NCBI GenBank assembly: GCA_029204225.1
Contig: CM055109.1
Coordinates: 2,224,340-2,288,339, forward strand
Direction: 5' to 3'
Source of the DNA: Diphasiastrum complanatum
Lineage: Eukaryota > Streptophyta > Lycopodiopsida > Lycopodiales > Lycopodiaceae
DNA: 64,000 nucleotides
In this document: positions 23,901 to 61,680 of the stretch, in pieces
How positions within the stretch are numbered: position 1 is the stretch's first letter
Layout: every line of letters starts with the position of its first letter
The notes under the pieces: model-generated
The model's input: only the letters and a program-made list of their open reading frames with translations
Told to the model about the DNA's origin: nothing
Databases searched by the model: none
Made by a program: the position numbers and the translations under genes

Positions 23901-24496
23901 ATTAGCTCAATCGTTTTGGTTTTATAGTTCCAATCAGTAAATGATTTATACAAGTTGAAAGAAAAGTTAAGGACTCAATTTTAGGACCACACCCAGCTCC
24001 GTCAATAGGGGAGCAATCTCTTTCTTAATTTTGCCTCCTAGAGATTACCGAAGTGCCCATACTGATGGAGATTTAAATATGTAGATATAGAAGTATAATA
24101 TACATTTGCATCTAGTAATGCGCTATGGATAGGAAAGGCCTTATATAAAGTTACAAATAGCTGGAAATTTTTCCTACATACATCAAAATATGTACTCAAA
24201 AAAGATAAACACGTTGATACTTGAGAAGAGTTGTACATCTTAGATCTTGCATCGTAATATTGTCAAATACAACATCAATGTTTTCGTTCATGCTTGCTCT
24301 ATGATTTGAATTACCACTCCAATGTCTTTGCATTTAATTTTTTTTTCATGTCTTTTATGTATTTGCACACAAAAAAACACACCAAATTTTAGCTCTAAAA
24401 ATATCTTGTTAAAACATTCACATCAAGGCATAATCAATCAAAACACTCATACATTGACAAACAATTTCTGCATACCAATTATTTATTCACAGTGAA

Positions 24497-24935
24497 GCAA
24501 TATTGACGAAGGTCATGTTGCAAGAAGGTAAGTTTGTTCTAATATAGAATAAGCACCAATTATGCTCCACCTTAATAGTAGTAAGAAATTTTTCATTTGA
24601 GATGATATCAATATGGATGTGATTAGTGTGTCCAATGTTATTCGAATCATGATCTAATGGGACCCAAATGCTATTATCACTTTTCCATCTTTTAGCTCTA
24701 AAAATATCTTGTTAAAACAAGCAATATTGACGAAGGTCATGTTGCAAAAAGGTAAGTTTGTTCTAATATAGAATAAGCACCAATTATGCTCCACCTTAAT
24801 AGTAGTAAGAAATTTTTCATTTGAGATGATATCAATATGGATGTGATTAGTGTGTCCAATGTTATTCGAATCATGATCTAATGGGACCCAAATGCTATTA
24901 TCACTTTTCCATCTTTGATACCTATGAATGACCAT
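24497..24935. repeat. Tandem duplication, 224-bp unit
   Basis: GCAATATTGACGAAGGTCAT and what follows (24497 on) is repeated almost identically from 24721 (offset 224). A linker AGCTCTAAAAATATCTTGTT occurs at 24391 and again at 24692, marking the recombination points. The duplication disrupts a minus-strand reading frame related to 59875-60426. Confidence 0.9.
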
Positions 24936-25855
24936 TTGATTCTATATTCTATATTTCCACTAGAATTCTAATCCCGACTTCTGTACTTTTTTCCATAAAT
25001 TCCATTATATATTCATGTGGTGGACTTTTACAAACAAACATTGTGGGGGTTTGGTTCAACACACCTCAATATTTGCAAAGAAATTTAGAAACACAAATGT
25101 TGAAATAAACCAGTTCCGATGCCATTTTTGGGTATACTATCAATTTTGAGTGACTTTAAGACAATGATATATTGAATTTAAGTGCATTCCACTCGTTACT
25201 TTGAAAAATGGGAGAGGTACAAACTCTAGTTCTCTACTCCATTCAAATCTAGAATACACATACATCATAAAAAGCTACTTTAGTAGAATCTACAAGTTTT
25301 TTTGGGGCTTGTCCTTTACGTTGCAATTTACCGATTTCCAAATGGACGATATCTATAATACCTAGAAGAAAGTTCACAAGTTTCCATTCACGTATAGGAT
25401 ATAAATACGCAATACAAAGAATCATTATAAGTTTTCCTTGTTAAATACAACTACATATTAGGGATGAAAGTAAATCAAAAGATCGCGTTACTTACAATTA
25501 CATTTTTGATAATCACAAGGCTTCGTAGAATCCACAATAAATTTCAATTGTACATAATCATGTTGAATAAGCACCTCTTGAAGTGGGTTGTCCACTTGAG
25601 AGTACTTTAAATTCAACAATCGTAGCTTTCCAATAAGGAGTACATTTTCTTCTTCTTCTTTTGGAGGAAAGTCCCTCTTGTTGATAAATGCATCAATACC
25701 CAAAAAGATTTATGATATTCATGGGCAATCCGCATTATTCCATCATCTTCCCCCTCACTGTGTATAAAAATGCAGAGTTGATTGAGGATCTTGGTCTCCT
25801 TGTTGTCGCCATAGCTTGAAGAGTTGTTTTGAATCTCTATTGAGCTTGATGGCAT
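24654..25855 (-). pseudogene. Decayed relative of the unknown gene at 59.9-60.7 kb
   Basis: The minus-strand block WVPLDHDSNNIGHTNHIHID with IISNEKFLTTIKVEHNW matches WLPLDQDFELNGHTNRMEIN with IIYNEEYLTMVEVEEHW in the 60 kb gene. Further upstream, SFWVLMHLSTRGTFLQKKKK (25640-25710) matches NSWILLHPSSKGNFRQKKRA, and NPLQEVLIQHDYVQLKFIV matches the continuation there. The blocks occur in the same order and orientation in both places, so this is a homologous gene broken by frame shifts and by the 224-bp duplication. Function unknown. Confidence 0.7.
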
Positions 25856-29499: not shown

Positions 29500-30310
29500 A
29501 AACAATGACACTTTTTTTCTTTGCACTTTTTGGCCCTGCCTTACAGGCAGGGGCACAAGTTATATTTGTAGCTTTGTCGATGACAGATCAGGTAGCTCAT
29601 CAATTTTACATCTTTTGTTCTAGAATGATCTCACAGTTGCTTTCACCTCGTCAAGAGTTCTCATCCCTTTTTTGATACCACACTTACAATAAACTCACGA
29701 GTCTTTCAGCTCATAAAACTAGAACTTTTCATGAGCAATGTGCACTAAGAACTCATTGATATAAAAGCTTCACGATTTGACTTTCTCACGCCAACTGATG
29801 TTTGCGAAGATCTTCTTCACGCAGCTCTGCTAATCGCCTTGCCCTTCTTATAGCTCTAAGAGCTCTTTATGAGTTCACGAGTTCCATCATGTAACATGGT
29901 TGTGAGACCAGGTCTATCATAGTAAATCAGAGTAAGGCCTCTATACTCTATGGTGATAGACGTAATACACTTGCAAATGGCAAGCTTTGCGACGGTTTTA
30001 ATGTTGTCGTCTAAGTTCTAACATGTCAATGGCATTGCTGATGGTCTGAAATTTAGCCACAGTATTGTTTAAGACTATTTCCCAATCATTCTTGTCTAAG
30101 TTGATTGTTATTTACGTAAATTGCTAAATGTGTCCTGGTGAAGCAGTGGAACGTCAAGTGGGGTACCTATAGCAAGCCTGCTCCTATATTAAGTTTCTTC
30201 ATTCAGACGCAGCCACCACCGCCATACATGTGAATTATCTTGTGTTTTTTCAGGAGATTGTATAGATAAGGTACGAGGTTTCAAATGCTTACTAAAAACT
30301 AATTCTTAAG
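29500..30310. other. Unassigned, probably decayed retrotransposon
   Basis: Minus-strand fragments (for example IYYDRPGLTTMLHDGTRELI near 29920-29860) look protein-like but match nothing I can name. There are many stops. Confidence 0.3.
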
Positions 30311-30315
30311 ATACT

Positions 30316-31135
30316 TTGAAAGAATGTGGATTTTTCACGTATAATTGTAGCCCAAACAATTTCTATCGTGAACAACTGCTTCTATACAAGCCCTTCCATG
30401 AATCTGAAAACACAATAGTTAACTCACATTGTACATATAAAGACGCCTACGATTTTCACTACAATACCATTCATACAAATAGCAGCAAGTTTAACTACAA
30501 CTTCCAAGCTATGTTTACTAATTGCACATCATGTACAACATCTACTACAACCAGGACCACATCGCAAACCTCAATGCAAAGCCTGCCGATTAGAGACGAG
30601 CAACAATGTGAATATAATGTTGAGCTTGACTTTCCATCCCTTTGTCGACCTCATTCAAGACAACCTTCACAAGAAACTGGCAAATTTCCATACCCAATTA
30701 TGGACAACAATACGTACTTCGAAAACATCATAAGCCTCAATCAAGCACAACGATTGATCTTTGATGATATTATGCGATTAAAACGACTTCAACCAAATGA
30801 ACGCATTCATTTACTACTAATTGGAGGTGCAAGCACTGGAAAAACATACACATTACTACTTTTAGCTCAGGGATTGCTTCGACATTATTATAGATACCAT
30901 TCCACAAATATCGAATTATCGAAGGCTTTGTTAATGGCATATACCGGTAAAGCCACATACAACATTCGTGGCACTACCATTCATTCCGCGTTGCATATAC
31001 TTATAAATGCCAAAAATTTAACATCGTTGTCTGGTGACAAGCTCCAAGAACTAACTACTAAATATCATGACATACAACTTGCCATAATTGATGAAATATC
31101 TTTGATAGGCCGTCGTATTTTCCAATTCGCCGATC
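30316..31135 (+). mobile_element. Helitron helicase, N-terminal half (interrupted)
   Basis: The plus-strand frame begins in the Rep-to-helicase linker (CGFFTYNCSPNNFYREQLLL, YKPFHESEN). It then shows SF1/Pif1-type motifs: ISLNQAQRLIFDDIM, Walker A in LLLIGGASTGKTYTLLLLA, AYTGKATYNIRGTTIHSAL (motif Ia region) and Walker B LAIIDEISLIG. It stops at 31135 only because a copia element is inserted there. The reading frame resumes at 37135, where QFADQRLRSIKHRPTSFFG joins exactly across one copy of the 5-bp duplication. The Rep nuclease (HUH) part upstream is missing, so the Helitron was already truncated or its 5' part is unrecognisable. Confidence 0.9.
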
Positions 31136-31921
31136 TGACAAAATTTCCAGAATTCACACGTGTGGGGAATGTCCACAAGAGTGACTAATCTTAATTAAGC
31201 TTTGTGATTGGCACTATAACCTGATTCTAGATTGATTAACAAAATCTAGTGTAGAAGAAATGGCTAATCCACAATCTAGCATGCTAATCAACAAAATATA
31301 ATAGCAATGATCAAAGAATGAAAAAATACAAGATTTCAATGTATGAGCATTAGCCTCAACACGAGTTAGAGAGAGAGAGAGAGAGCCAGAGAGATAACAA
31401 GCAATATTTGTTTAGATCCAAAATGACATGAGATAGCTACAAAACTTTGGTTCTTCATCATTGATTGTGTGGAGAGCTACACATATTTATGGAAATTGAG
31501 GTAGCTCGAGGTAGAACCATATCTATCCATTCCAAAATGACATCTAGAGTCTATGTGACATTTGTCACTTGTCATGCATGAAATTCTACCAACTTTTTAT
31601 AAGTGTACTAGTTCTAACTAGAAATGTCCAAATCATCATGCATGTGTCCATTAAACTTTGTGCATGCCTTGCATGTCACTATGGATCACTTACAATTAAT
31701 GCATGTGAGTTGCCACGAGTTTCTACAAGCATAATCATGCTAATTCTATGTCCACAAACTATATGCAAGTTGCATTTATCAAACTTAATAATACATAACC
31801 ATGTAGCTCGAGTTCTATGTAGGCCAAACTTGGCATTTTGCATTAATGAGCTACATACTTGCATGGTACAACATTTGTAGCAAGCCAAGAAATCAATACG
31901 CATTGTTTTTCAATTTTAACA
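31136..31921 (-). repeat. 3' LTR of the copia element
   Basis: 786 bp, matching 36370-37134 almost throughout. It contains a GA-rich microsatellite (31366-31386). The internal side is preceded (minus strand) by the polypurine tract TTTTTAGGAGGAG at 31934-31922. Confidence 0.95.
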
Positions 31922-39361: not shown

Positions 39362-42300
39362 ATGGCTAATGAAGGCAACGCCGTTTCATCTCTTCTGGAT
39401 TTCATCAACAGAAGAGAAGGAGATCCCCTCATTGGCACTTCGCTGAAACAGCTGAGTGGGGATGGTGGAGCTCCTCCCCTGGCTCAGAAATCGTCCTTCG
39501 TAGCCCTTAAGAGTAGACCTCCTTGTGAGTATCACAATTATAAGCCTCTAGGTCTTTCTTTATGCTTCGAAGGATCCAAGGTGCAAGCAGTTCATGTTTA
39601 TAATGGCACGCATGGCTACTCTGCCTACCAAGGGGAGCTTCCGTATGGTCTGAGGTACCAACCCGATCCTCAATCTTTATTATCTTGTATTTTTTTTTCC
39701 CTCTTAGTATCGCCAATGTATACAAGGGTTTTACAGTTTGTGTCACAGGGATTTAATCATTGATTTCATTAGTCTTCTTTGTTGGAAAGTGCTCGTGAAT
39801 GATTATTTTGCCACTTATGCTATCTTTCATGCTAAATCTGTAGATAAGTTCTTAACTCTATGTTGTAGGAGCAGTACTTTACCAAGACGTTAGATTCGTT
39901 GCTTTTTGAGACATGAAATTCGGACCCAAACTATTGCAGATTCTCTACTTATGAGATCGGGGGAGCTATCTAATTTAGCGCCCCCTCTTTTACACTCTCT
40001 GTGATCACGCAGAGCATGAAATAGGGGATATTAAGGTCATCTAGAAACATGTCAAATTTCTCCAATTGTGGTGATGAGAATTACAATGATGCTAATAATG
40101 GTGGTGGTGAAGTCTTAAAGTGAGAGTTGTTGGAGATACATAAAGTTTCAATCCAAATTTTTACGCTTCCATGTTATACAGAATTACAGATACAATTTGC
40201 ACTAGCCTGCAACATATTTAAAATTTCCTTTTTGAATGGTCCATAGATGCACAACGTTTCGGAATTTTGGAGTGTTTCAAAATGGAATGCTGTCCCTTTT
40301 CTTGGTTTTTGGTATTTTTTTTCATGTGTAGTGTGGAAAAAAAGACACATATAGGCTGAATTTTTTTTTTCAAAACACGGTGAACTGCTAAGGAGCATTC
40401 AATCTCTGAATTTAAGACAATAGTAGGAGACAATGCAATGCTGAATTTTTGACAGCAGTAAAGAGCATGCAAATCCCTGATCTTGACTAAATTTTGATTT
40501 CTAGGAGACACTGAAACACTGATGACCCTCACTAGCAGGTGGCACGGCCGCTGCAGCAACGTAAAAATTTTTGCAACTAGCGGGCCGCAGCATGTCAACA
40601 AATTTGATAAAAAAAATGCAATTCTTTTTGCGATCTGGGACTGCAATCCGGTTCTTGAATCACCAGCGTTCTGGAACGTGGATGCAGCAGATTGCGCGAT
40701 CTGCTGCATCTCTGCAAGTTTCAAACATTGTGGTTGCTCATGTTCTTGATATTACAGTGGACAACTTGGGCCTAGATAGTTTACCTCAATAGCCATTAAT
40801 TATGCTCACAAAGCCAATTTCCACTTCTCACCGACAAGGACTCCAATGAAGTACAAAATCTGCTTTGGATAATGCTTACTCCTTGCACTTTCTTGCAAGG
40901 TATCCACAAGTGCAAGCCTAAGTGGATGCTCTTGATCAACTCCAATCAAACAAGCAAGTGCTCCTTTATTGGTACTAAGTTACTAACAATACTAAAACCT
41001 GTTGGCCACTCACCAGGTTGTGTGCACCTTAGTTGCCTTGGAATGGCATTCCAGATCCCTGCAGCGTTCCGGAATGCAAGAATGCAGTTTGTACAAAACC
41101 TGTCATTTTTTTACATACAGCCCCCGACGTTTTTTTTATAGTGGATACCTTGCATTTTCCTTGGCCGACACCACCATTTCTTGTGACATGATGAGGGAGA
41201 TTGCAGCTTGTGATGCCACTTGGAGACCCCCACACACGAGGCTCTTCGTAGTCGCCATTTGAGAAAGGAGCATGCATGCATCACAAAAAGCTCAGCCCCA
41301 TATGACATACCTGGGCCACATATGGTTGCTCTATTCTATTGGATGGGTGGACTGATATTAGGCACATGCCTATTATCAACATCTTGGTTTCATGTCCGTT
41401 GGGCAACGTATTTCTCAGGGGTGTGGATGCTTCTCGAGATGGCACTGTTGAGTCGGAAAAGTTTATCTATGAGCATATACATGCAACAATCATCAAGGTG
41501 GGGGCACAACATGTGGTGCAGGTGGTCACCGACAATGCTAGCAGTTGTGTGGCTAAATGTGAGCTTTTGGAGAGGGACTACCCCACTATTGTATGGACCC
41601 CATGTACAGCACACTGCATTGATCTTTTGATGCATGACATAGGAGGCTTCCCCTGGGTTTCCACTATCATATCTAGTGCCATCTTCCTGGTCACATTTGT
41701 AACCAGGAAGAAGAGGTCCCTCGCCATGTTTAGGACATATAGCCCATTGGATCTGAATTTCAGCACCCACACACTTTGTCTACCACTTCGTCATGTTGGA
41801 ACGGTTATTTCGGGTATGACCTGCATTGCGCCAGATGGTAGCCAGCCTTGAGTTCACACAGTGGCATCATAGCAGCAAGCCGACTGGACTTCGGTTCCAG
41901 AGGATTGTTTTTGGAGATGATTTTTGGCGACAAGCTGGGTTGCTGGTTCAGGTCCTACAGCTAGTGTACCATGTTCTGAGGTTGGTGGATCGAGAAGGTT
42001 TTACACTCGGCCTCATTCACGAGTTTATGGACAAGATTGAGGAGACCCTTTATCGACTGCTTTTTGATGAGAGTAGGTATACCCTTTTTGTAATATGTTC
42101 GGTGCATTGTTTTGTAAAAGCTTTTAGCATTGTTGAGTTGTTTTTCCTACAATGCAATGATTATTCTCTGGTTTTTATAAGATGTTAGCTGCCCAAGAGA
42201 AGTGGCTTGACGGGTGGAATTTCTTCCACAAGCCCATACACGTTGCTCACTTGCTTCACCCTATGTGGGCTACTGGAGCCATATGCAAGCCATACGCATA

Positions 42301-54799: not shown

Positions 54800-55403
54800 A
54801 GATGTGCAAGCAACGAAAGTTGCATTGTAAGCCAAGCATAGGAGGAGCAAAAGCACGTCGTTTTCTATCAAATCATACTGGTAAGGCTTCTAATATTCAA
54901 TACTCAGTCTGGACAGATATTATTGCTGTCACTCAGGACTTCGAGAAAGACGACAAAACAAGAGTACTAAAAGTTGATGTATGAAAAAAGCTTGATAGTA
55001 TGATTGCTATTTTAAGAAAAGAAAAATACTCTGATATTGATAAGAAAGCTGTCCAAAGGACTTGTGTCGAGTTTGTTAATGCAATATCAAAAGCATGGGG
55101 AGAAGATCACATCACTCATTACATGGTTAGTATAAAATTTTCAAAATGCTTTCAAGTTTTCATATATATTTAGATCCAAACATAAGCCTAACATTATGAT
55201 TTTGACATATGCAGCACATACTAAGAGATCATACAACATTTTTTGCAAATACATATGGAAGCTTGAGTGTATGGTCATCACAAGGGATGGAGAAGTCACA
55301 CTGGCAAGCACGAGCAGCATTTCATCAAAAACCACATGGAGGAACCAATGAAAAACGAAACTACATTTGTCAATTGTTTCAGTGGTTTTACCGCAGAGTT
55401 TAG
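54800..55403 (+). CDS. Transposase-like C-terminal region, spliced, family unclear
   Basis: An open frame (with one TGA at 54982) reads CKQRKLHCKPSIGGAKARRF, IQYSVWTDIIAVTQDFEKDD and KAVQRTCVEFVNAISKAWGE to HYM at 55125. A GT donor follows, with an acceptor ATATGCAG at 55214. Exon 55215-55403 gives HILRDHTTFFANTYGSLSVW, SSQGMEKSHWQARAAFHQKP and HGGTN. The pattern 'LRDH...YGSLSxxSxQGxEKxH..AR..FHQKxxHGG' recurs at the C-terminus of several large eukaryotic DNA-transposon proteins. I infer it is part of the element carrying the neighbouring genes. It is followed by gene B in the opposite orientation. Confidence 0.45.
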
Positions 55404-55625
55404 ATTTGACATATAACAAAGTCCACACAATACAAGAAGTTTAGAAAAGCATGCAAGTTCATACAAGAAGAGAAAATTAGATGATTGCTGAGTAGAAGAT
55501 CATCATTGTTGAGTAGAAGATCATCATGACATGTTCAGAATTGCTTTGCAGATTCATTGAACAACAGAGGGGAAATACCCAATGTAAATGTATTGATTGT
55601 ATTATACCAAAATACAAAGTGTCAA

Positions 55626-56752
55626 CTATTCATCATCAAATCTTGTATCAGATTCTACGGTAGTATCGTCATGAAGAAATTCTCTACTAGCGTATGCATC
55701 TAATAGATGTGCATTATCCTTATTTCCACTAAGCTCAATATAAGTGGAATACAATGAATAATGGGAGCTTCTTAAAGGAACATTCCCATCAGTAAAGCCT
55801 AAAATGTTCAAAACATAAGATCTTTTGACAAAAATAATCTTATTTGTCTTAACAAATTTATGTCCTCCTAGATAAAATGATAAAGCTTTAACTACCATTA
55901 TAAGACTCTCCCCGACTGGGCTCAGCTTGGAATGAGCAATACAAATCTCATTCTTCAGGAAATGCCTAAGATAGTGGCCCAATCCACTGTCCCTCTGGAA
56001 CGAGGATGCGTGTTGTCTGAAACCACCTTGTCTCGCAGCAAAATCATCTATTATGAGAGCATCCTACAATAGGAAATATGTTAGCAAAAACACATTCAGT
56101 GATTGAAAACATTCAAATGCAAGGAAGATTAAACACTTACACATTCTTCATCATCAGCAGCAACCAGATCAGGATGATCAATATAATGACCATGTACTGA
56201 AGTGGAATCGTTAGTGAAGTGCATTAATGATGGATGAGGGAAGCCCATCTGGGATTGAAATGTCGTGAATTCTTCATCGAATGGTCTGTCTCGCCCATCC
56301 TCAACTATATTTGATAAAGTCTTATTCAGGCATTCTTCACCGGTCATAAGACCCTCCTCATCATCAAAATCAATACCAGCAACAAGGTCATCTGTCTCAA
56401 AATCTACAAAGTCGGAGAATTCGGAAATTGTGCCAGATAATAAACATAGAACCTCGTCCTCACGATAGTCAAAAAATTTACATAAATCAGCAGTAGTAAA
56501 ATATACATTGTCATTAATATAATATACAGGCAAATTGAAAAGACATTTCGAATTCTCCATAGATTTGGATTCATTATCAGATGTATTTTGGCCAATGAAA
56601 GAATCCCGGAGAACATCAGTATTTACATCAATGAAGTCACTTTCTTTATCAGGAGTCTCGATAAGAAAGTGACTGATATCCTTAATGGCTGACTGAACAG
56701 AGGAGGGTGCAAAAGGAGGGTCAGCAACAGGAACTTCATCATCATCTGGGAT
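55626..56752 (-). CDS. Unknown acidic protein encoded by a spliced gene (gene B)
   Basis: Two solid minus-strand exons. 56752-56141 (acceptor TTAGTTCAG) is 204 codons, with donor GTAAGTG at 56140. 56063-55626 (acceptor CCTATTGTAG) is 146 codons including the TAG stop. They join in frame (DDEEC then DALIIDDFAARQGGF). The first exon is strongly acidic (IPDDDEVPVADPPFAPSS, FDYREDEVLCLLSGTISEFS, FDDEEGLMTGEECLNKTLSN). The second has a more folded look (HYLRHFLKNEICIAHSKLSP, GESLIMVVKALSFYLGGHKF, NKIIFVKRSYVLNILGFTDG). An upstream exon near 57150-56870 is likely but its donor is uncertain. No stops inside. I do not recognise the family. It is divergently arranged with the H3-Ulp1 gene, with the G-box array between them. 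Confidence 0.6.
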
Positions 56753-56869
56753 CTGAACTAACAGAAAAAGTACAAAACCACTCTGATATTCAACCAATCG
56801 ACATTTCTTGTTGCAATACGAACACACTATCATAAAAAGGCTCATGCAGCCATGAACTGCCACCAGAAC

Positions 56870-57146
56870 CCAAGAAACAAATCAACTCAAAGCAGACAGG
56901 AGAACAACAATAGTTTGTCCTATGTCGAGGAGCCAGAGAGCTCAAAGATGGACAAAGAAAGATCGAATCACGAAAATTCGACTGCCTACATCTATGTAGA
57001 CATATGGTATCAACATCTGACACATAGGAGGTAATCCTTGATTCAGAAGCTACCTCACACTTCGTTATATCAAGACGAATCACATCTGATTTCTGTGCGC
57101 GAGTAGGTATAGTTGCAAGCAAATGGACAACAATGAGCGCGCACAA
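56870..57146 (-). CDS. Possible first exon of gene B
   Basis: The minus-strand frame from ATG 57146 reads MCALIVVHLLATIPTRAQKS and DVIRLDITKCEVASESRITS, with a hydrophobic start that could act as a signal sequence. Alternatively translation could start at 56863 (MAVHGCMSLFMIVCSY) and read straight into the next exon. Which start is used cannot be decided from sequence. Confidence 0.3.
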
Positions 57147-57224
57147 AAGCGATATGTCGCGAATTTTGAGAACTAAAAAGGTAAAAAATTAATCGGTTTT
57201 CGTGCCATTTATACTAAATTTTTG

Positions 57225-57484
57225 CACGTGTGGTCACCGGACTTAGCACACGTGTCTACTTTCCATTGAAAAACAGACGCAGACACGTGTGAGATGACAC
57301 CTGCACACGTGTGAAATGACACCTGGACATGTGTCGCGTGTTCATTCGATTGCTCAGAAACACGTGTCGCTCTCGCATTCGATCGTACAAATCCCACACG
57401 TGTAATGTGACAGGGTGACACATGTCACTCTTGCATTTGTCCATACAACGCCCACACGTGTGACAAGACGTTCTTTCGCACGTG
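57225..57484. promoter_or_regulatory. Array of eight CACGTG palindromes between divergent genes
   Basis: CACGTG cores at 57225, 57249, 57284, 57306, 57361, 57397, 57455 and 57479, several extended to CACACGTGTG. Intervening units are partly repeated (GTGTGA[AG]ATGACACCTG, GTCGC[TG]...CATTCGAT). CACGTG is the G-box bound by plant bHLH and bZIP factors. The array lies in the shared upstream region of gene B (minus) and the H3-Ulp1 gene (plus), so a bidirectional promoter or a transposase-binding array are both possible. Confidence 0.7.
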
Positions 57485-57815
57485 CAAACCCTGATATAAA
57501 ATCACAAATTTTGATGAATTTTTTTCACTTTTTTTTTTTTGCTCCGCATATCGCATTTGTGCGCGCCCTTCACAATCGAAATTCCTCCTACTGCCTTCCA
57601 TGAACACAGGTCCGATACGTCTGCCTACATGTCACCCCATATCGCACTTGTGCGTCTTTCCTCAAATCTAATCATTCTCTCTGATATTCAGCTTGCACAG
57701 GTCCGATATACCGTACATTCTGTCCGTACATAGCGGTCCTCTGCGAGTTCTTTATCATCCCTCCCTTCTCATCCTAACCTTCACGCACAAGTCCGCTATC
57801 ACATAATACACGCCC

Positions 57816-59540
57816 ATGGATAGGAGAAAGCAGACACGGAGGGACTTCTTCTCTCCTGGCTCATCCTCATCTCCTGCGGTTGCCATCACACCACCTGCTA
57901 GACCTAGAATGCGCAACTGCAGCAGGTGGCTCTCTGAGATATGCAAGTATCAGAGGTCAACAGCTCTGTTGATCCCAAGAGCTCCATTCTACTATGCTGT
58001 CCGGAACATAACAAGAAATGATCTCGGACAGCACGTTAGATTCACACCGAGTGCTCTTCAGTGCCTTCAAGAGGCTTCTGAAGATTATATTAGCCTTTTT
58101 TTGAGGATTCTTTTTTGCTTGCCATCCATACCAAGAGGGTTACCATAATGCCCAAGGATTTTCAGCTTCTGATGAGAATGAGGGATAGGTACTGTAGGTT
58201 ACATGTATCTCAGCCTGCTGCTCCTAGACCAACTCCTATAGATAGGACTAATCTTCCTACGAAGCGTCCTAGAAAGCAGACAGCCCCCAAGCGTGCTCCT
58301 AAGAAAGTGAAGCCTAACCCCTCAAATTTTGTGAAGCCTATCCCAGAATCCATTGTAGATAACATTGTTGTTGATAATGCTGTAAATATAGCTACCTCTG
58401 TTTTGGATACTCCTATAATTGTTATAGATACTACACATTCACCTCCTTCTCCTCGTCCCAATTTTTATATATATATAGATTCGGATGATTATCTTAAATC
58501 TGAGAAAGACATATCGGATGCTATAGATACAATTGGTACTCCTTTTAGTATTAATTTTAGAATTCTAGATTGTCGGGATCTCAAAGATAGACGGGCTTCT
58601 ATCAGTGATCCTGTGATAGAGTCTGGGCTTACACTCTTGCAATATGACATTGCAAGAGATTCATCAAATGAGTTGTTGGTCAGAGTAACTTTCTGCTTCA
58701 AGCCTTCAAGAGAACAATGACACATTGTCACAGTGTCTGACAAGTGGATTCACACCAGCAACAAAGTATCTGCTCATACCTTATCATACGAAGTAAGTTA
58801 TATTAAATGCTTCTTGCTGTTTTATGCATTAACATTGGCATTGTCAATGAAAATAGTTCTCAGAATTGCAACTAAAGAAATTTCAATCTTATTTTGCAGT
58901 GATCACTGGAGTTTAGACCTGATCTCTATTAAGAGATCTGTAAATAATATTATTAAATGTTTTTGTGTCAAGATGAATTCGGCGAGAAATACGCATAAGG
59001 ATGTAGATATATACATTCCATATCTAAGTAAATATATTCCTACAGACGTTCCCCATTCCGTGGACTGACAGATCGTTAGCTTGGAGGTAAACTCTGTCTT
59101 TCTTAATAGCATTTTGAAATCAGTATTCTAATGAAATATTTTCAGCCTAATTCATTCTGTTTCATAATTGATTTCTTGTGTGCTGAATTATTTTGCAGTC
59201 ACCCCAGCAAAATGATTCATTCAGCTGTGGGCGGTACACATTGTATAATGCCAAGTTGTTTTTTGAGTGGTTCAACCTTCAACAAGATGTTGATATTTCT
59301 AAGGTAATAAATTATGTTTATTCTTATTTCGGAATCATGATTAGTTTTCTATTTAGGTGATGTTATTGGCCATTACTAATATATGAATGTTCTATTTTGC
59401 AGTTTACACTTCCTGAGTACACATCAAGCCAGGTGTACAGATTTAGACAAGAAATTATCCTGAGTATACTGGCTAGGGCAAGGCTTCAGCCTCCCGTTAT
59501 TGATGATGGTGCAAAGGATGATGTAGTTGTACTAAATTAA
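57816..59540 (+). CDS. Histone H3 (CENH3-like) fused to a Ulp1-type cysteine protease
   Basis: Exons are 57816-58792, 58900-59086, 59199-59303 and 59403-59540, with GTAA donors and TTTTGCAG acceptors. The start MDRRKQTRRDFFSPG recalls an H3 tail. It continues through the H3 core: EICKYQRSTALLIPRAPF (alpha-N), SALQCLQEASEDYISLF (alpha-2) and, after one extra T in the T7 run 58096-58102, LAIHTKRVTIMPKDFQL (alpha-3). LLIPRAPF, KDF and a one-residue longer loop 1 (NITRNDLGQHVRF) fit centromeric H3 better than canonical H3. A basic linker (TKRPRKQTAPKRAPKKVKP) and an acidic region follow. Then come Ulp1/C48 features: TKYLLIPYHTNDHWSLDLIS (catalytic His region, across intron 1) and SPQQNDSFSCGRYTLYNAKL (Gln and catalytic Cys). 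Frame shifts near 58700-58740 and a TGA near 59067 (Trp expected) suggest a damaged copy. No known plant gene has this domain order, to my knowledge. Confidence 0.75.
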
Positions 59541-59874
59541 AATTAGAAAAAATATAGATAGCATAGAACAAAAATACATGTATAGACTTCATAGAAAAAT
59601 ATACATTGATATATCAAATGCTACTCCAGTTTATGAATTTGGAAGCACAAAATACATGTACAGATGTCCAACTTGGGCTTTCATTTATTGAATGAAAGAG
59701 TGTATACATAGATTTTTACTAAAGTTTATTTGAAACTATTGTTCTCCCACAATGGTGATTGTTGTAGGTAGATCTTTGCAGCACGTTATCAGCTCCTGTC
59801 TTTTTCGCATCCATGACATGGCAAATATTAGTGAATGTGCAATTGTAAATGATGATATTTTCTATTATTTTGTT

Positions 59875-60712
59875 CTATTTTGAAATGGCAATAAGTCTTC
59901 CATTGATGATAAATCTGAAATATGTTGGTAGATTGGTTTGTAATAGCATGAGCTCTGTTCTGAAAAAATCAAGTTTCCAGTGCTCTTCCACCTCAACCAT
60001 AGTCAAATATTCCTCATTGTAGATAATGTTTATCTCCATTCGGTTTGTGTGACCATTTAGTTCAAAGTCTTGATCCAGTGGTAACCATGTACCTTCAATT
60101 TTCTTGTATCTCTGGTAGCTAAATGTGAGACTGAGCATTTGCTTTTCAATATGATAACGAAAGGTCATTGAGGACTTTTTAATCCTGCATTCTATGTCAT
60201 TATTTGTTTTACTATCCCAGCCTTGATCCATGAGATCTGACAAAGTCTCATCTGATAAATCCTTGCAAACAAATAAAGTTGGTGTCCTACGAATACTAGC
60301 ACTCGAGAAAAAATCAACAAATGTATGCAATGAGATAAACCAACTTAGGTGAATAATTTTTGAGCCTGTGCTTATCTTCATAGCATTTTTAATATCAATG
60401 AGTAGCTTGCATCTCATTGATATCATTTACTTTGATTTCTGAATGCATATATACATGTTGCACTAAGACTTCTGATATCAATTGACTTCATGGGGTAGTC
60501 TTAAACTCCAAAATTTTTGCTTTCCAATAAGATTTGTAAGTCATTTTTGCTCTTTTCTTTTGTCGAAAATTGCCCTTTGATGATGGATGCAGCAATATCC
60601 ATGAGTTCTTCGTATATTTTGTTGGCTTCCAGTTATCAGCTTCATTTTTTTCATTGTAAAGAATCACAGAATCGATTGTAGATCTGGGTCTCCTTGCCAT
60701 TGCTATTTTCAA
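59875..60712 (-). CDS. Unknown protein (gene D), relative at 24.7-25.9 kb
   Basis: Minus strand, from ATG 60712 (alternative ATG a few codons in: MARRPRSTIDSVILYNEKNE). It reads YTKNSWILLHPSSKGNFRQK, has one TGA at 60488-60490, continues SQLISEVLVQHVYMHSEIK, shifts frame near 60430, then runs open to 59875: IIHLSWFISLHTFVDFFSSA, LFVCKDLSDETLSDLMDQGW, KIEGTWLPLDQDFELNGHTN and TMVEVEEHWKLDFFRTELML. Two separate regions of the window conserve the same order of blocks, which argues for a real protein. The repeated beta-strand-like pattern has no motif I can name. It is the last gene of the cluster, transcribed towards the H3-Ulp1 gene. Possibly lightly damaged. Confidence 0.55.
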
Positions 60713-60719
60713 AGCTTGG

Positions 60720-61680
60720 GCGCCAAAAATCTCTCTGATATGTTACTTAATTTTAATTTTTCGTATCACATTTAATCTATTGTAAATGCCAACATAGTCA
60801 CAGTTACTGTGTATACCATATTTTATGTAACTGTACATACTATATTTCTATAACTGTAAGTATAGTTAGAAAATTTCATTATACTAACCAGCATAGTAAA
60901 GTAAATTTAACTCGAGGTATTGACGTCGGGCAGATTAGCACATGTCGGGCAGGAAGAAGAAACCAATGGGATACGTCCATGCTTCCCGGACACAAATTTC
61001 AAAGTTTGCTATATTGCATTTTTATTTTTTAGTTAATTTGAACTACGTTACGTAGATTTCAAATCTGTGCATTTTGATTGGGCCTGGTGACGGTCGAAAC
61101 TAAAGAAAAAAAATAAAAGTATCTTTACAAAGGGTCTTTTTGATATTGAGAATTCCTCTAATGGAGAGAAAGAGAGAGAGAGAGAGCTGTGAAAATAGAT
61201 CGCATGAGTTCAAGGAGGGTTGCTTCGCCTCTAAGGGCAAACAACCTGAGGGCTCAAATTCGATGCTTAGATTTGATCAAGATTGAGAGATAGGGGTCCA
61301 CGAAGATCAATGGTGCAGATTGGAGGAAGGACTAATGGATGAGATCGAGCCTTGCCAAATGAACGACCAAGATTGGACTAAAAGAGCCCAAGGGCTAAAA
61401 AGGACATAGTGCACTTGTATGGAAATTCAAAATGAAAAATATTCTAATAGAAAAGGATCTATGGAATATCAGTTCAAATCGACAATCACAGCCTATGGTA
61501 AAATAGAAATTCACACATGAGGAGCTTTCCACACTAACAAGCAACCACTTACTTACTTCATTACTCAACTATACAATAATTACAGATAAAGTACTAAGTA
61601 GGACCTACTAGTAACTAGCCCTTCAGCCTAGTGCCTAAAGAGAGAAAAAAGAACCGTAAAAGAAACAATTTAATGTTCAC
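60720..61680. other. Gene-free stretch right of the cluster
   Basis: 60780-60910 holds repeated AACTGTA/TACTATA-type motifs (TAACTGTACATACTATATT, TAACTGTAAGTATAGTTA) that may be subterminal repeats. TCGGGCAG occurs twice (60927-60934 and 60949-60956). A short (GA)n lies at 61163-61186. No coding motif. Confidence 0.4.

Follow-up and report, generated by a model that had tools for sequence, protein, structure and literature searches.

A multi-gene DNA transposon of Diphasiastrum complanatum encodes a fusion of a histone H3 variant with a SUMO-protease-like domain

The DNA analyzed here, a 64,000-nucleotide stretch of Diphasiastrum complanatum contig CM055109.1 that we call the window, carries the remnant of a mobile element with four genes, ORF1 to ORF4 (Table 1). 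The remnant has lost the left ~2.5 kb of the element, and copia-like ORFs lie to its left, as judged by eye. ORF2 is without its N-terminal part, and positions 56827-57093 have no match in other element copies. The right terminus of the remnant recurs in other copies.

Table 1. Features of the element remnant, in window coordinates.
Feature	Position	Strand	Details
Element remnant (family 1), window copy	54828..61163	+	89.5-95% DNA identity to C17:46013001-46023500, three blocks
ORF1 3' remnant, putative transposase	54808..55170	+	tblastn 85% to ORF1 of copy C21
ORF2, divergent from ORF3	55629..56827	-	pieces 56132-56827 and 55629-56147; tblastn 88-92% to other copies
CACGTG cluster between divergent ORF2 and ORF3	57225..57484	.	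8 sites in 260 bp
ORF3 exon 1	57816..58792	+	tail MDRRKQTRR, H3 histone fold (to ~58190), basic linker, C48 start
ORF3 exon 2	58900..59086	+	catalytic-type His in NDHWSL, codon 58904-58906
ORF3 exon 3	59199..59303	+	PQQNDSFSCG with Gln and Cys, Cys codon 59226-59228
ORF3 exon 4	59403..59540	+	C-terminus
ORF4	59887..60733	-	pieces 59887-60420 and 60416-60733; tblastn 90-92% to ORF4 of copy C17
Right terminal inverted repeat (CATTAGAG... on minus strand)	61129..61163	-	27-base core, one mismatch, plus outer CATTAGAG

The first-pass annotation had read a histone H3, a basic linker and a C48/Ulp1 domain as one gene of four exons with regular splice sites. All three introns are indeed GT..AG with consistent phases, and exon 4 recurs as FTLPEYTSSQ...VVVLN in copies L013, L022, L026 and L017. 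In the window, the Pfam Histone family (PF00125) matches two frame-shifted pieces (57807-58148, E 2.4e-13; 58094-58720, E 2.8e-6), and the Peptidase_C48 (PF02902) match at 59187-59360 (E 7e-4, 19.9 bits) lies just below the 20.7-bit cut-off. This copy is damaged at a T-run, by further frame changes in exon 1, by an in-frame stop in exon 2 and, when compared with other copies, by a short internal deletion. The copy on contig C14 near 49,096,025 (L013) is intact: its four exons give 479 residues in one frame with no stop, and the protein matches both Histone (E 8.3e-22, 78.2 bits; cut-off 26.4) and Peptidase_C48 (E 3e-9, 37.5 bits; cut-off 20.7). The PDB relatives of copy L028 were H3 chains (E 9e-20), and that of the C-terminal domain was an Ulp1-like protease (E 1e-4). 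Hence the fusion belongs to a gene family and not to the window copy alone. The frame shift at the T-run, previously left as either a sequencing error or true decay, is one of several breaks in a gene with an intact copy elsewhere, and decay is the reading that stands.

Comparison of copies gave an element of ~9.4 kb (9,363 bp for the one at C17:46,013,001-46,023,500) that is bounded by inverted CATTAGAGGAGTTCTCAATATCAAAAAGACCC termini of ~35 bp and carries, in order, ORF1 (+), ORF2 (-), ORF3 (+) and ORF4 (-). The earlier suggestion that a mobile element carries the H3–Ulp1 gene is thereby borne out. Both termini are readable in six copies (C17, C21, two on C6, C22 and C2). Copy C7b has altered outer bases at its right end, copies A and B have a right end without the outer eight bases, and the right end of copy C12 was not found in the 1-kb stretch examined. 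A Pfam scan of ORF1, ORF2 and ORF4 gave no family above the cut-off, and two ORF1 pieces compared with the PDB gave nothing at E<=1. Full-length ORF1 copies conserve LDES, GDLKTLKCMYNVSHG and CxxC; judged only by these acidic and CxxC motifs, ORF1 is a likely transposase. A viral origin was considered and rejected: single-protein queries, whose reach is close relatives, found no relative of an ORF1 piece or the H3 ORF in the viral contig set, and ORF1, ORF2 and ORF4 match no Pfam family above its cut-off.

Searching the 1.74-Gb genome with the H3 piece (5,149 candidates) gave at least 150 matches, with 85-100% identity among those listed; this copy count is a lower bound, and some of the matches are local or assembly duplicates. 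The listed places are spread over all 23 contigs (C1-C23) and small ones. Thirty loci were chosen by H3 rank (L004-L033, the first of which is the window copy), and at 27 of them homology extends over the His exon as well as the Cys exon of the Ulp1 part; the exceptions are L019 (no Cys exon), L025 (no His part) and L027 (neither). A PF02902 profile search of the genome, with 3 matches among 150 scored (520 candidates), was unusable because introns probably split the domain. At L038/L039 (C14:49089154-49104153), the left arm of an element lies inverted beside the intact H3–Ulp1 gene, which suggests nested or rearranged element ends.

The hexamer CACGTG occurs 20 times in the window versus 4.7 expected, and 8 of the 20 form the cluster between ORF2 and ORF3. 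Four other element copies have 4, 5, 6 and 9 of these sites at the equivalent place. A longer 8-mer, ACACGTGT, is only weakly above chance at locus L058 (3 versus 0.96; 12 of 200 shuffles reach this count). The CACGTG sites may form a regulatory or binding array that belongs to the element, like the tandem targets of the VANC protein.

How does the element insert? Target duplication is absent in five of the six flank pairs, the sixth showing ctct at a CT-rich site, and an 8-bp TSD is found in none of the six. For a first copy, which sits inside a gypsy integrase frame as judged from the letters, the joined flanks match empty sites across the junction at 40 of 40 scored places, 39 of them without net length change. 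The joined flanks of a second copy were compared with 40 empty places, of which 36 have one base more, three have the same length and one is shorter. We conclude that the first copy is a clean insertion without duplication and that the second possibly lost one base at or near the insertion.

We compared ORF3 across 21 copies (35 rows were located, two of them the same copy; 5 short ones were dropped, 30 were aligned, and 9 near-identical ones were dropped). The N-terminus of the element's H3, family 1, reads MDRRKQTRR in 19 of the 21 and MDRRKHTRR in 2, the host H3 N-terminus being MARTKQTAR. Five of the first eight residues after Met are identical to H3, a score reached by 48 of 200,000 shuffled tails, and KQT around K4 is in register with H3. 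Only one lysine, at K4, is present in 17 of the 20 readable tails, and the other 3 have two; the K9 place is Asp, or His in L031. Apart from KQT, the tail departs from the ARTKQTARKS sequence of H3 with its modifiable lysines. K9 and K27 of H3 are sites of host silencing marks. With no lysines at these places, nucleosomes that contain the variant would resist those marks. A Met ahead of Asp is unlikely to be cleaved off, in which case the tail of family 1 might be read differently from that of free H3.

H3 genes also occur in other repeats. At locus L034, a relic that we assign to family 3 carries ORF1, ORF2 and H3 in the order and orientation of family 1, with protein identities to family 1 of 50, 57 and 31% for pieces of ORF1, 26-43% for ORF2 and 36% for the H3 fold. 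Ulp1 was not seen in this relic, which is cut by a family 1 insertion ~1 kb past H3. Its N-terminus, MAFMKQTTQ, shares four of the first eight residues after Met with H3 (29 of 200,000 shuffles reach this score). Among 150 ORF1 places and 150 H3 places of family 3 listed genome-wide, we counted 14 ORF1/H3 pairs within 6 kb, where 0.04 were expected, and 16 within 12 kb; the relic from which the queries were taken is itself duplicated and accounts for 3 of the 14, and the rest may include further duplicates. Every pair lies on the same strand with H3 downstream, and no other arrangement occurs within 12 kb. Because 147 of the 150 listed family 3 H3 rows match from query residue 1-4 onward, the tail belongs to the family; judged by match lengths, tails in other copies are often a few residues longer.

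A further H3 repeat, family 2, has at least 150 matches, 78-100% identical among those listed and many without stops. Its H3 fold follows a proline-rich tail of ~280 residues (for example C17:36124930-36126700; L083, L081), and one copy, read over its whole length, has a stop immediately after the fold. No link between family 2 H3 and family 3 ORF1 was seen by eye in the listed places, and we treat family 2 solely as a repeat. Elsewhere in the window, positions 24529-25812 (-) hold a diverged ORF4 relative (28-54%), a relic of another element family, with no H3–Ulp1 match in its surroundings at E<=1e-3.

Could the Ulp1-like domain be an active protease? Its catalytic residues are kept across the 21 copies (His in 20, Gln in 21, Cys in 18). 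The places aligned with the catalytic Asp hold Val in 20 of 21 copies and Lys in 20 of 21, the remaining residues being one Phe and one Glu. An acidic residue at the aligned Asp is thus missing in 20 of 21 copies, and the His-Asp-Cys triad is incomplete. Without that Asp, the protease may be weak or dead; the predicted domain may work with a dyad, only bind its partner, or be inactive.

On balance, we think that the element encodes an H3 variant through which a SUMO-protease-like domain reaches chromatin, probably to counter silencing, a function that we infer. The H3 fold would pair with H4 and enter, or be held at, nucleosomes. For the C-terminal domain, the target would be SUMO (or a related modifier), on which it would act or to which it would only bind; SUMO-dependent silencing of element chromatin would be weaker as a result of the fusion. 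A tail with the K4 region but without K9/K27-equivalent lysines would make for nucleosomes that resist silencing marks. A bolder proposal, which we put forward tentatively and regard as doubtful, is an undescribed superfamily of multi-gene plant DNA transposons that insert without target duplication and build their own nucleosomes. Its H3 would be conserved and stripped of silencing lysines, and one branch would have joined it to a SUMO-protease-like effector; in this way the element would write its own silencing-proof chromatin.

Perhaps ORF3 serves transposition instead? The H3 fold might pack or bridge element DNA, and the Ulp1-like domain might mature element proteins in the manner of adenovirus-like proteases, with no role against silencing. 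Some Cryptons carry Ulp1-type peptidases for which the retrieved part of the source mentions no silencing role (PMC3212892). Three further element genes match no Pfam family and would leave room for such a function. However, no polyprotein was recognized as a substrate, and an H3 fold normally acts with H4 and not alone on DNA. We consider this explanation unlikely, though the most serious of the alternatives to a role at silenced chromatin.

A piece of host H3, and of Ulp1, might also have been captured passively and amplified without use. H3 transduplication by fungal hAT elements is on record in the available part of one report (PMC6710886), and many element copies are broken. For the test of selection on ORF3, we scored a variant as private if it occurs in one row and as shared if it occurs in three or more, leaving out two-row variants and counting stops together with amino-acid changes. 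Over all codons, pN/pS was 0.42 for shared and 0.90 for private variants (Fisher p 0.0017). The Ulp1 part gave 0.25 versus 0.93 (p 0.0003), the H3 part 0.43 versus 0.83, which is not significant (p 0.20) and leaves some room for capture, and the linker 1.04 versus 1.02 (p 1). Private ORF3 variants are near neutral, and shared ones are depleted of amino-acid changes. Variants that are shared come largely from lineages that replicated, and so ORF3 was probably functional during the spread of the element; by this test, the Ulp1 part has strong evidence and the H3 part only suggestive evidence. Moreover, the H3 part is only 50-53% identical to host H3, yet its fold, its KQT and, in the intact copy, its frame persist, and a second family at 26-57% protein identity has H3 in the equivalent place. 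Passive capture is thus distinctly improbable.

One feature of the alignment is puzzling. In 13 of the 21 copies, TAG replaces a Glu codon inside the H3 fold, directly after the variable T-run (near 58100 in exon 1 of the window copy), which would prevent many copies from making the complete protein. Descent of the TAG copies as a single clade was not supported: they are scattered over a poorly resolved tree, which takes 6 changes versus 6.6 in shuffles. The TAG could be a recurrent change, mark a non-autonomous class, or be part of a splice acceptor at the T-run.

The H3 part had been described as centromeric-like in the first-pass annotation, and a CENH3-type histone might steer insertion to centromeres or interfere with them. 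Its LIPRAPF and KDF do resemble plant CENH3, and loop 1 in family 1 is one residue longer than that of H3, with Phe instead of Trp. Where CENH3 has its loop-1 Trp, the family 3 relic also has Trp, which speaks for CENH3, but its loop is not longer, and family 2 has neither the longer loop nor the Trp. Host canonical H3 genes resemble land-plant H3 by eye, and the family 1 core is 50-53% identical to them, against 47-52% for rice CENH3, 42-48% for Arabidopsis CENH3 (42-52% for plant CENH3 together) and 41-45% for human CENP-A. These three sequences are the CENH3/CENP-A rows of both alignment and tree; no host CENH3 was found. Identity to canonical H3 thus equals or exceeds that to CENH3, and the N-terminus is H3-type. 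In the tree, element H3s do not group with CENH3, though only one of its seven inner branches is well supported. The spread of the listed places over all 23 contigs and small ones may also speak against centromere targeting. We conclude that the ORF3 H3 part is best read as an H3 variant for which a centromeric identity is not supported, and we regard a centromeric role as very unlikely. That two adjacent genes or an annotation illusion account for the fusion, as the frame-shifted and intron-interrupted window copy might suggest, is hardly credible when exon 1 of L013 runs unbroken from H3 into C48 and its four exons share one frame over 479 residues.

VANC and TET/JBP are established examples of transposon-encoded factors that counter DNA methylation; to our knowledge, VANC is neither a histone nor a SUMO protease. 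KI-MULE/Kaonashi Mutator-like elements are plant TIR elements with an Ulp1-like ORF, a likeness to the element described here. MULEs have long TIRs, a 9-bp TSD and a MURA-type transposase, however, and none of these was seen in our copies. Spy, a Harbinger-related element without TSD and with a target preference, resembles our element in its inverted termini and its insertion without target duplication, but we recognized no Harbinger transposase and saw no such preference in six flank pairs. Like Kyakuja-Dileera-Zisupton (KDZ) elements, the element is a DNA transposon that carries a putative chromatin-modifying gene; the KDZ enzyme is different. The 7-8-bp TSDs of KDZ elements are missing here, and the same source, in the part available, records Harbinger-related elements with a 0-bp TSD (PMC12730594). 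VANDAL, a plant DNA element with an extra protein as in our case, uses VANC to defeat silencing, the targets often being non-coding tandem repeats according to the portion retrieved (PMC5735166); for our element the corresponding role is inferred.

Among the matches listed from the open PMC literature on histones and transposons, we found no transposon-encoded H3–Ulp1 protein and no transposon H3 under selection. The nearest published systems among them were Cryptons and the fungal H3-hAT elements. Some Cryptons share with our element a transposon-encoded C48/Ulp1-type domain; they have a tyrosine recombinase, and the retrieved text mentions no histone domain for them (PMC3212892). No tyrosine recombinase was recognized in the element ORFs scanned, in which ORF1, ORF2 and ORF4 match no Pfam family above its cut-off. 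The hAT elements of Dothideomycetes, as described in the available part of Dhillon et al. 2019 (PMC6710886), are ~9.5-kb DNA transposons with an H3-like sequence and hundreds of copies, similar in size and abundance to ours; they have a hAT domain, an 8-bp TSD and a 20-bp TIR, and copies are inactivated by RIP. That text (PMC6710886) mentions no fusion, whereas H3 is joined to Ulp1 here. The Pfam scan found no hAT domain in the element ORFs, and our element further differs from the fungal one in the absence of TSD and of a recognized transposase, in the constraint on ORF3 and in the presence of H3 in a second family. The precedents therefore cover parts only: H3 capture by fungal hAT elements and Ulp1 in Cryptons.

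If the element does own a selected fusion of H3 with a SUMO-protease-like domain, then the nucleosome itself would be something that mobile elements can provide as a weapon, and the protein would be a natural tool to test how H3 tail lysines and SUMO hold plant silencing. The element also makes clear that, in a large plant genome, an H3-like sequence may be the gene of a transposon and not a host histone.

The window holds traces of other repeats as well. By eye, a PIF1-helicase-like ORF at 30310-31188 (+) is probably part of a Helitron, and 41306-41851 (+) carries a fragment of a hAT/DUF659-like transposase. A 224-bp tandem duplication with 99% matches lies at 24495-24916.
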